NCBI GenBank assembly: GCA_002284915.1
Contig: CP015606.1
Span: 620,001-684,000, forward strand
Length of the DNA: 64,000 nucleotides
Source: Actinobacteria bacterium IMCC26077
GTDB taxonomy: Bacteria; Actinomycetota; Actinomycetes; Nanopelagicales; Nanopelagicaceae
Direction: 5' to 3'
Position numbers and translations under genes: made by a program. The notes beneath the pieces are model-generated. The model was not told the DNA's origin, did no database searches, and saw only the letters and a program-made list of their open reading frames with translations. Shown piece after piece: positions 17,028 to 21,818 of this stretch. Every line of letters starts with the position of its first letter. Position 1 is the first letter of the stretch.

Positions 17028-18743
17028 TTACCGAATCTCGCAGATTGTTGCACCGCTCGAGATATTCGCACCAACTTCTAATGTGAGTCCATGGATGGTT
17101 CCGGACTTATGTGCCAATAGCGGTTGCTCCATCTTCATCGCTTCCAACACTGCGATGAGATCACCCTCGCTCACCTCTGCGCCATTGCTTACGGCAATCT
17201 TGACCACCGTTCCCTGCATTGGACTGGAGAGCGCATTCCCTTGATTCTTAAAAGTTCGCGTGGCGTTGGATCGTCGCCGCTTGAGCTGCTGCCCCAAGAT
17301 TCCCACCTCGAGGCGATGGCCATCCACTTCGACGACTAACCGTTCGAGGACCGGCTCGGCAAGCGCTTCGCTGCTACCTGAGAATGGCGGGATTTGATTA
17401 TCGAATTCGCTCTCGATCCAACCGGTGAAAACCACAAAGGGTTCGCTCGTAAAGGCGGCATCGCCAACAACTGCTCTATGAAAAGGTAAAGCGGTGGCGA
17501 TTCCATCAACAATAAACTCATCGAGAGCACGGCGTGCTCGTTGAAGTGCCTCGGAACGGGTTGCGCCGGTGACAATCAATTTGGCAAGAAGTGAATCGAA
17601 ATTCCCGCTGATTACATCTCCTGAGGTGAATCCAGCATCCACTCGTACGCCTGGACCAGAAGGTGTTTTCCATTTCGTAATCACTCCCGGCGTGGGGAGA
17701 AAATTACGACCCGGATCTTCGCCGTTAATTCGGAATTCAATGGAGTGGCCACGGATCTCGGGGTCACCGTATGTGATCTTCTCTCCCGAGGCGATTCGGA
17801 ACTGCTCTCGCACGAGATCTAAGCCTGTTACCTCTTCACTGACGGGATGTTCGACCTGAAGGCGCGTATTGACCTCAAGGAAAGAGATCGTGCCATCGAC
17901 TCCAACGAGGAATTCGCAAGTACCAGCGCCGACGTAACCTGCCTCTTTAATGATTGCTTTACTTGACGAGTACAACTGATTAACTTGATCTGCACTTAAG
18001 AATGGAGCTGGAGCCTCTTCGACTAGTTTTTGATGGCGCCGTTGCAGCGAACAATCACGGGTGGAGACCACGACAACGGTGCCATGAGCATCTGCAAGCA
18101 CTTGGGTCTCAACATGGCGAGGTCGGTCAAGATATCGCTCAACAAAACATTCACCGCGACCAAAAGCGGCAACTGCTTCACGGACGGCTGAGTCGAAGAG
18201 TTCGGGAATCTCTTCGATGGTGCGAGCAACCTTTAAGCCACGGCCGCCACCGCCATGGGCAGCTTTTATCGCCACGGGTAAGCCATGTTCCTTCGCAAAA
18301 GCGATGACCTCGCTCGCGCTCTCCACTGGATCTGGGGTACCGGCAACGAGAGGCGCACCAACTTTTGCAGCAATCTTTCGTGCAGATACCTTGTCGCCCA
18401 GTGCGGCAATTGCATGTGGTGGCGGACCAATCCAGACCAGACCCGCGTCGATTACAGCGGCGGCAAACGTCGCATTCTCGGAGAGAAATCCATAACCAGG
18501 ATGAATTGCATCGATATTGGCTTTCTTTGCTATGGCAATGATCTTCTCGATGTTCAGATAACTCTCTGCAGCGCTCTTTCCATCAAGCGCATAAGCCTCA
18601 TCGCATGCCAAGACATGTTGTGCATTTCGATCGCCATCAGAGTAGATCGCAACGGGGACAATCCCATGATCACGTGCAGCGCGCGCGACTCGAATGGCTA
18701 TCTCACCACGGTTAGCTATCAATACTCGTGCAATGGGCTTCAT
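17028..18743 (-). CDS. Acyl-CoA carboxylase alpha subunit: biotin carboxylase fused to BCCP
   Basis: Carboxylates its own biotin with bicarbonate and ATP for transfer by the beta subunit. The 571-residue protein has a biotin carboxylase part ([24 protein letters not shown]-binding [24 protein letters not shown] catalytic loop) and a C-terminal biotinyl domain with the acceptor lysine Lys537 in [13 protein letters not shown] 18743 overlaps the maf stop as ATGA, which decides the start against an in-frame ATG 27 bp upstream. Last gene of the pccB–epsilon–maf–alpha operon, probably the propionyl-CoA carboxylase alpha subunit, possibly shared with acetyl-CoA carboxylase. Confidence 0.92.
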
Positions 18744-19345
18744 GATGAGCTCGCTCTCAATGTGTGCCAAGGGTGTCCTAATTCTTCGCAGAGTTGGCGC
18801 AAGTGATTCATGCTCAATCCTAGGACGCCCGTTGCATCGCCAGAGATTCTTGAAATGTAGGCAGATCCGATGCCATCTAACGAAGCCCCGCCAGCAAGCA
18901 AGAGCGGTTCTTCAGTTGCGATATAGGAGTGAATCTCTTCATCAGAGATTTCGGCAAATGAAATTTCAGTCGTTGAGAGCGCACTTCGTGAGGACATCGA
19001 GGTAGTGTCAAACACCGTTTGTCCGGTATGGAGTTGACCTGATTTACCGAGATACTCGCGCCACCAATTGAGTGCAACTTCGGCAGTCTCAGGTTTTGCC
19101 ATGGCCCGTCCATTGAATTCCAATGTGGAATCGGCTCCAATAACCAACGCTGGTTCACCCTGATGCTTCTTTGCGATTGCGCTTGCTTTGGCTTGGGAGA
19201 GTGCCACCACCATCTCCGCTGGTGCGAGCGTTGCGAAATGTTCGCTCTCCTCATCAACACCGCTAACCTCGACTGTATGCAAGATTTGCGCCTCACTGAG
19301 TAACTTGGTGCGCGCAGCTGATGCGGAGGCCAAAATTACCTTCAC
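18740..19345 (-). CDS. maf: Maf-like nucleotide pyrophosphatase
   Basis: House-cleaning NTP pyrophosphatase (201 residues). The N-terminal [16 protein letters not shown] matches the Maf signature, followed by [16 protein letters not shown] and the [16 protein letters not shown] region. The start is GTG overlapping the stop of the epsilon-subunit gene; the stop overlaps the biotin carboxylase ATG. A maf gene within the acyl-CoA carboxylase operon is typical of actinobacteria. Confidence 0.92.
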
Positions 19346-19467
19346 CGCGAATTCCCGTCGGTTCCTTCGATGACAGGTTTTACACCGCTTGCTTCACTAA
19401 GCTTCAAGGCTTTTTCAATCGCGGCAATCTCAAGCTGGGAAGCTGATCCCTTCAGAATCGTGATCAC
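19342..19467 (-). CDS. accE: Acyl-CoA carboxylase epsilon subunit, very short
   Basis: A 41-residue gene between pccB and maf. It starts with GTG overlapping the pccB stop (GTGA) and ends in a TGA overlapping the maf GTG, so it is stop/start coupled on both sides. The product, beginning [20 protein letters not shown], matches the usual epsilon pattern of a short beta strand ('xVxGxP') plus a helix of Glu/Ala/Leu. Actinobacterial epsilon subunits stabilise the alpha–beta carboxylase complex. Position and pattern make the call good despite the short length. Confidence 0.85.
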
Positions 19468-21035
19468 AGCGGAATATTCCCATGTTTACGCGGTGGCAAC
19501 TCCACTCTTTTATTGCGCAACGCTCGGAAGGCGCGACTGATGCTCATGCGAGATTGCGCTGGTTCGATGACTGCATCGATAAATCCACGCTCTGCCGCTA
19601 GATATGGGTTGGCAAGAGTGTCGTCGTATTCGCTCATCAACTGTTTACGAAGCGCATCGGCATCGTTGGCTGCAGCAAGCTCTCTTCGATAGAGGAGATT
19701 GACGGCGCCTTGTGCGCCCATGACGGCAATCTGTGCAGTGGGCCACGCGAAATTTACATCTGCACCTAGATGCTTGGAGCCCATGACGTCATACGCGCCG
19801 CCATATGCCTTACGGGTGATGAGCGTGACCATGGGTACCGTTGCCTCGCCGTATGCGTAGAGGAGCTTTGCTCCTCTACGGATGATTCCGTTCCATTCCT
19901 GATCGGTTCCAGGGAGGAATCCAGGGACATCTACGAGCGTGAGGATTGGCACATTGAATGCATCGCAGGTGCGGACGAATCGCGCTGCTTTCTCGCTCGC
20001 ATCGATATCAAGGGTTCCAGCTAACTGAAGTGGTTGGTTTGCAACCACACCAACTGCCTGACCTTCAATCCGACCAAATCCAATAATGATGTTTGGTGCG
20101 AAGGATTCTTGAATCTCTAGGAATTCGCCGTCGTCGAATATTGCCTTGATCACGACTTTCATATCGTATGGCTGATTTGGGCTATCTGGAATGAGGGTAT
20201 TCAAGGCGTGATCTGATGTGTTTATCTGCTCTGAAGTTGTCGCTGGGAATATCGGGGCTCGCTCACTATTGTTGCTCGGCAAGAATGCGAGCAAGTTTTT
20301 TACATAATCAATTGCATCGAGTTCATTCGCAGCGTGATAATGCGAGTTGCCAGTTTTCGTGTTATGCGTCCGAGCTCCACCAAGCTCTTCCATCTCCACT
20401 TCAGCGCCGGTGACCGCCTTGATAACTTCAGGTCCGGTGATGAACATATGTGACGTGCCTTCGACCATGATGATGAAATCTGTCATCGCAGGGGAGTACA
20501 CAGCGCCACCCGCGCATGGTCCAAGAATCAGTGAAATCTGAGGTATCACGCCTGAGAGTCGCGAATTCCGGCGGAAGATCTCGCCGTAGAGACCAAGTGA
20601 GACAACTCCCTCTTGGATTCGGGCGCCACCTGAGTCATTGATGCCAATTAATGGAATCCCCGCCTTGAGAGCGAAATCCATGACCTTAACTATCTTCTCG
20701 CCAAAGACCTCACCAAGGCTTCCGCCCATAACGGTGAAATCTTGGGAGAAGATTGCAACCTGGCGTCCATCGATCGTGCCATAACCAGTGACGACTCCAT
20801 CCCCATAAGGACGTTCTTTCTCCATACCAAAAGCAACTGAGCGATGGCGTGCAAGTTCATCGAACTCGGTAAATGAACCTTCGTCTACGAGGGCAGCAAT
20901 CCGTTCACGCGCAGTCATCTTTCCTTTGGCATGTTGTTTCTCGATTGCTCGCTCAGAGCCAGCGTGGATTGCCTCATCGAGTCGAGCACGCAAATCGTCA
21001 ATCTTGCCTGCAGTGGTATGAATATCACCGCTCAT
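19464..21035 (-). CDS. pccB: Propionyl-CoA carboxylase beta (carboxyltransferase) subunit
   Basis: Transfers the carboxyl group from biotin to acyl-CoA (523 residues). Crotonase-fold signatures are present: [18 protein letters not shown] near the N terminus, [38 protein letters not shown], and the C-terminal [10 protein letters not shown] and [17 protein letters not shown]. Propionyl preference is inferred from linkage to a methylmalonyl-CoA mutase; acetyl-CoA use cannot be excluded. The ATG lies only 18 bp from the divergent birA start. Confidence 0.92.
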
Positions 21036-21053
21036 AGCCGTACCGTACCTCTC
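21036..21053. promoter_or_regulatory. 18-bp divergent intergenic region with overlapping -10 hexamers (pccB/birA)
   Basis: The heptamer TACCGTA (21041–21047) reads TACCGT on the plus strand (7 nt before the birA GTG) and TACGGT on the minus strand (6 nt before the pccB ATG). Both opposing promoters therefore share five base pairs, both predicted mRNAs are leaderless, and there is no room for a ribosome binding site on either side. Confidence 0.6.
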
Positions 21054-21818
21054 GTGGAACCTTTGGATATAGCGGAAATCATCTCAGCACTAGACCCAGG
21101 TTACTGGCGAGTACAACATTTTAATTTAATAGATTCTACGCAACGATCTTTGGTCTCGGCCGTTATCGCAGGAGAGGCAGAAGCCGGTGATGTATATCTC
21201 GCGGAGTATCAAAGTGCAGGGCGGGGTAGAGGCGCTCGGAGTTTTGAATCTGCAGCAGGCGATGGGATGTTGCTCTCTGCCGTTATATCCCCAAAATCTC
21301 AATCAGAAAACCGATGGGGCTGGGTGCCGTTAATCGTCGGCGTTGCGGCATGCGTGGCAATCATGAAGTCCACCGGCGTGCAGGCAGTGTTGAAGTGGCC
21401 AAATGATCTACTCGTAGCTGATGAGAAAGTTGGCGGAGTGATTGCCGAGAAGGTTAACGAAAAGATCGTGATTGGCATTGGTATCAATTGCCTCCAAGAA
21501 CAAGGTAACCTCCCCGCGATCGGTGCGACCTCGCTTCGAATTCACTCCGCAGAACCAGTAAATCGAAATCTTCTGGTAGCAAATTTCCTCAATGAGCTCG
21601 ATCGAAATATTTCTTCGTGGGAAGAAAAGCCATTTCCGGTCGAAAACCGCTATCGCCAACTCTGCTCCACTTTGGAGCGCGACATACGGCTTCTGCTCCC
21701 CGATGAAAGTCAGGTAACGGGGCGAGCTGCTGCTATCTCTACCTCTGGAGCATTGGTACTGGCAGATGGGCGCGAATTTGTCGCAGCTGATGTCACCCAT
21801 CTTCGCCTCGATAAGTAG
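21054..21818 (+). CDS. birA: Biotin–[acyl-CoA carboxylase] ligase
   Basis: Biotinylates the BCCP lysine of the carboxylase encoded in the opposite direction. The 254-residue protein has no N-terminal helix-turn-helix, so it is a group I ligase without repressor function. Motifs are the FNLIDSTQ start, [15 protein letters not shown] (biotinyl-AMP-binding GRGRR-like loop, here GRGRGAR) and [12 protein letters not shown] 21054 is chosen because the longer frame would run 100 bp antisense into pccB and because of the -10 element 7 nt upstream. Confidence 0.9.

Follow-up and report, generated by a model that had tools for sequence, protein, structure and literature searches.

The window, by which we mean the whole 64,000-nucleotide stretch of DNA analyzed here, contains a divergent gene pair encoding an acyl-CoA carboxylase subunit (pccB) and a biotin-protein ligase (birA). 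The features at and around their junction are, in order of position:

17028 to 18770, minus strand: pccA, biotin carboxylase with a biotin carrier domain (Biotin_lipoyl), by domain match
18740 to 19345, minus strand: maf, likely co-transcribed with pccB
19342 to 19467, minus strand: 41-aa open reading frame that overlaps the stop of pccB and the start of maf, without a Pfam match
19464 to 21035, minus strand: pccB, acyl-CoA carboxylase carboxyltransferase subunit; predicted +1 at the ATG at 21035, with a hexamer 12 bases upstream
21036 to 21053, no strand: gap between both start codons, from the sequence and from its equal length in 55 relatives across 8 genera
21041 to 21047, no strand: symmetric -10 heptamer TACCGTA (TANNNTA), from the sequence and from TANNNTA in junctions of the family
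21054 to 21818, plus strand: birA, biotin-protein ligase; predicted +1 at the GTG at 21054, with a hexamer 13 bases upstream

Downstream of pccB, the 41-aa frame, maf and pccA follow in that order with overlapping starts and stops, and pccA is probably part of the pccB operon. The 41-aa frame occupies the place where other actinobacteria usually carry the acyl-CoA carboxylase epsilon subunit, but naming it as such would be a guess for a product that matches no Pfam family. BirA (254 aa) matches the BPL_LplA_LipB domain only, and Pfam detected no N-terminal DNA-binding domain of the kind that marks repressor-type (Group II) ligases. The initial annotation had the ligase biotinylating the carboxylase made by its divergent neighbor; this stands to the extent that the biotin carrier lies in PccA, encoded further down the pccB side and likely the substrate of BirA, and fails for PccB, which does not bear biotin. 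Since the carrier domain lies in PccA, BirA would modify a presumed product of the pccB operon rather than PccB itself.

The 18 bp are the entire intergenic region, running from the ATG of pccB (the sole possible start in its open frame upstream of the aligned region) to the GTG of birA. On the forward strand the junction reads CAT (21033–21035), AGCCG, the heptamer TACCGTA, CCTCTC and GTG (21054–21056). Within the heptamer, TACCGT (21041–21046) faces birA and TACGGT (21047–21042) faces pccB; these overlapping -10 elements have 5 bp in common and carry the reciprocal -11A/-7T arrangement (TANNNTA) of bidirectional promoters. A TANNNT hexamer thus lies at leaderless distance on both sides, 12 bases from the pccB start codon and 13 from that of birA. 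The reading of the sequence with which the initial annotation began (start codons 18 bp apart, TACCGTA as a common -10, a 5-bp overlap) is therefore correct. The 18-bp sequence offers no Shine-Dalgarno motif to birA, and the GAGAGG before pccB, which is 12 nt away and is not conserved in genera g4 or g16, does not provide one at the usual distance. From start codons and hexamer spacing, the divergent transcription start sites are predicted to lie 18 to 19 bp apart; since the birA start lies at 13 and not 12 bases, the distance would be 19 rather than 18 bp if both starts were strictly leaderless.

These spacings match a genome-wide signature. Genes were called with a simple codon-usage script in 864 kb (56%) of the 1.55-Mb genome, comprising 800 kb of sampled sequence and the window, and in 400 kb from each of two genomes of other genera (G007 and G019), and TANNNT was tallied by distance upstream of candidate starts. 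In the 864 kb, 107 sites fell at 12 bases and 51 at 13, versus about 13 per position elsewhere, and peaks at 12 and 13 were also present in both other genomes. With pccB at 12 and birA at 13, both genes bear the leaderless signature of their genome, and the leaderless spacing initially claimed for each side holds. Symmetry of the hexamer is not the default, as the base 3′ of it is A in only 14% (41/287) of ordinary leaderless promoters, and TANNNTA is thus unlikely to arise by default. We found no literature on promoters of Nanopelagicaceae; in the phylum, absence of a -35 element is the norm (PMC8407463, PMC3898074).

Conservation across the family is evidence that the heptamer is more than coincidence. 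In this genome by itself, the 18-bp pattern around TANNNTA had 6 whole-genome matches versus 5 for a reversed control, so its occurrence at one junction could be due to chance, and its above-chance status follows from its retention across genera. We collected pccB/birA junctions from 97 genomes of Nanopelagicaceae, whose members are small freshwater actinobacteria; 89 of these genomes have a hexamer at leaderless distance from pccB, and in 85 of the 89 it is part of TANNNTA. In 55 genomes, spread over 8 genera, the gap between pccB and the start of an open birA frame is exactly 18 bp (L017, where an ATG at +18 is soon followed by a stop, was left out of this count). The initial annotation had made its proposal depend on conservation in relatives, which was borne out: TANNNTA is present in 55/55 of these junctions, though the genomes share ancestry and represent far fewer than 55 independent events.

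The pattern of change within these junctions resembles that of a -10 element. The T, A, T and A positions are constant in the 55 and the middle differs (TACGGTA, TACCGTA, TAAGGTA), with TAGGTTA and TACGATA as further variants among family junctions. In g4 and g16, identity in the heptamer columns is 1.00 (one column 0.74), and at third codon positions of birA it is 0.42 and 0.60. The first birA codons have diverged while the 18-bp gap and TANNNTA were kept, and BirA as a protein is only about 32–43% identical to its counterparts from other Nanopelagicaceae genera. Where the birA start has been relocated, the heptamer is mostly retained, which indicates that a gap of exactly 18 bp is not essential; some genera have leadered layouts, for example of pccB in g6 and of birA in g10. 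By position, the first T of the heptamer would be needed for birA alone and the last A for pccB alone. Of 34 junctions with the birA start elsewhere, 4 lack the first T, versus 0 of 55 with the start at +18 (Fisher p = 0.019, uncorrected for relatedness, with 3 of the 4 from one genus), a weak hint that the birA-side base depends on the position of the birA start.

Taken together, our data make it very likely that the 18 bp constitute a real and conserved bidirectional promoter that is leaderless on both sides. Its geometry, the leaderless signature of the genome and the conservation are established by sequence and comparison, and from these we infer transcription in two directions, leaders of zero length, polymerase exclusion and a set ratio. 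RNA polymerase would be able to bind TANNNTA facing either gene, since the -11A of each direction is paired with the -7T of the opposite one, and the -35 element would be dispensable. Initiation would occur at the A of the pccB ATG one way and at the G of the birA GTG the other, and with start sites that coincide with start codons neither mRNA would have a 5′ UTR. The site would hold one polymerase at a time, so that both transcription units would compete for one pool of binding events, and asymmetry in the flanking sequence would set the ratio of initiation. Given shared melted bases, mutual exclusion is a reasonable expectation, as is the hard-wired enzyme-to-ligase ratio proposed initially. 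In a toy calculation with made-up rates, sharing held the ratio constant near saturation of initiation, and at low initiation it hardly differed from two separate promoters; a hard-wired ratio is possible.

Bidirectional promoters arising from -10 symmetry were reportedly described by Warman et al. (2021, Nat Microbiol). The pccB/birA junction resembles that type in having one near-symmetric -10 with reciprocal -11A/-7T and divergent starts predicted to lie about 18 bp apart, with presumably no strict need for anything else, and differs in that the two genes, both conserved, are each predicted to give a leaderless mRNA (so that the promoter is the whole intergenic region) and in that the symmetry is conserved across genera. 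Middlemiss et al. 2023 (PMC10268837) supports the earlier statement that such promoters are already known in bacteria, and gives start sites 18 bp apart with reciprocal -11A/-7T. In promoters of this type the divergent start sites lie 7–25 bp apart, most often 18. In Mycobacterium tuberculosis, according to the accessible part of Cortes et al. 2013 (PMC3898074), 26% of genes with a primary start site are leaderless, TANNNT occurs without a -35 motif and closely juxtaposed divergent promoters are common. The leaderless promoters in that part of the study resemble what is predicted here (TANNNT 7–12 bp upstream, no conserved -35, the start codon as +1) and include Rv1129c/prpD, two divergent genes that are both leaderless, but one -10 common to both genes within an 18-bp gap is not described there (PMC3898074). 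The promoter type is thus already known, and what is new, as predicted from sequence, is the reduction of both 5′ UTRs to zero and the unusual compactness.

With promoters, leaders and intergenic region all reduced to the same 18 bp, this would be near the smallest possible divergent promoter, and comparative genomics indicates that the symmetry itself was kept over long evolutionary time. The junction thus offers a natural, conserved case for asking whether promoter bidirectionality in bacteria serves coordinated expression or arises largely as a by-product, and whether expression ratios in streamlined genomes are determined by exclusion between polymerases.

The explanation that competes most closely is that genome streamlining overlapped two ordinary leaderless promoters, an arrangement tolerated without any regulatory role and conserved merely since any change would break one of two needed promoters. 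We give it an even chance; it differs from the bidirectional promoter in selective reason and has the same anatomy, so the confidence placed in the two overlaps. These genomes are small and compact, and the gene pair persists in lineages where the birA start was relocated. The history of the pair points the same way: the genes of the divergent birA/pccB (accD5-type) pair are ordered and oriented alike in Streptomyces, Micromonospora, Nocardioides and others, and throughout the class, Streptomyces and Micromonospora included, birA often carries TANNNT at leaderless distance, whereas outside Nanopelagicaceae the pccB–birA gap is longer and the symmetric heptamer often absent, its seventh base often being G (TAGGCTG in Micromonospora). 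As Streptomyces and Micromonospora often have this G, we rejected a class-wide symmetric heptamer as a general statement. By this comparison, the compact symmetric form looks like a derived state reached in Nanopelagicaceae and partly undone, or not reached, in a few lineages (g10, g15, g6). General compaction, however, should affect many pairs, and of the 98 divergent pairs in the 56% of the genome sampled, only one has an 18-bp gap; pccB/birA was also the only 18-bp pair in the samples of two other genera.

Two further explanations are much less probable. The heptamer might be used in one direction only, with the other gene leadered and its promoter inside the neighbor, and the turn of one gene to a leadered state in g6 (pccB) and g10 (birA) lends this some plausibility; we consider it improbable, as our search of the junction found no conventional sigma-70 promoter pair and both outer heptamer bases are kept whenever both starts lie at leaderless distance. 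Still less probable, and rejected as the main reading, is that the heptamer is all or part of a transcription-factor operator through which carboxylase and ligase would be regulated jointly, for instance in response to biotin or fatty-acid status: the palindrome-like CCTA-CGGTAC-TAGG and the CTAG that several genera conserve would suit it, but the extended motif TACGGTACTAG was absent from the 864 kb of the pccB/birA genome and from the 400 kb of G019 and had a single match in the 400 kb of G007, a lack of recurrence that argues against a regulon, while the middle bases vary and the T/A/T/A positions stay, as -10 recognition predicts, and BirA matches the ligase domain alone.

The bidirectional promoter reading leaves one feature of the junction unexplained. 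About one base past the heptamer, on the birA side, a CTAG is kept in g3, g4, g7, g8, g10, g15 and g16 (e.g., L010).

The earlier description of the pair as notably compact for linked enzymes is justified as to compactness, though the layout is not unique, as at least eight other divergent pairs in Nanopelagicaceae share it. A whole-genome pattern search identified menE/menB as one further real pair in the pccB/birA genome (G000:C1:457641-457664; L192 1501-1524), with CAC, GCCTC, TAGGCTA, TCGCCT and GTG in succession and an 18-bp gap; of 16 family genomes checked, 14 retain this heptamer, including genomes in which menB is leadered. The 18-bp, doubly leaderless layout with a shared TANNNTA occurs in other genera at dapD/dapE (L308), glpK/glpD (L310), ribokinase/nucleoside hydrolase (L297) and nth/CRP-type regulator (L296), and further 18-bp pairs join an FmdB-type protein and its neighbor, an OmpR-type regulator and its neighbor, and a MobA-like protein and a metallophosphoesterase (putative identities, read from sequence). 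In this sample, which is not systematic, five of the nine pairs link steps within a single pathway or an enzyme with the protein that modifies it. Other pattern matches (L191, L194–L196, L295, L298, L300–L307, L309, L312 and L314) were discarded, as none of them is a genuine divergent pair with this spacing.

Over 61 genomes, CAY-N5-TANNNTA-N6-RTG was no more frequent than its reversed control. We therefore rejected a general enrichment of the 18-bp pattern, and the lack of excess indicates that the layout is not generally favored and that these are individual cases rather than a bulk feature. It is conceivable, though we think it doubtful, that shared -10 heptamers with zero-length leaders are a recurrent device of Nanopelagicaceae that would fix the initiation ratios of partner genes by polymerase exclusion without a regulator (pccB/birA, menE/menB, dapD/dapE, glpK/glpD and ribokinase/nucleoside hydrolase).

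A second compact geometry was observed at two divergent pairs with 23-bp gaps in the pccB/birA genome (about 965433–965457 and 1051494–1051518; sample coordinates B 165433 and B 251494), where the -10 hexamers stand head to head and share only TA (ANNNTANNNT).
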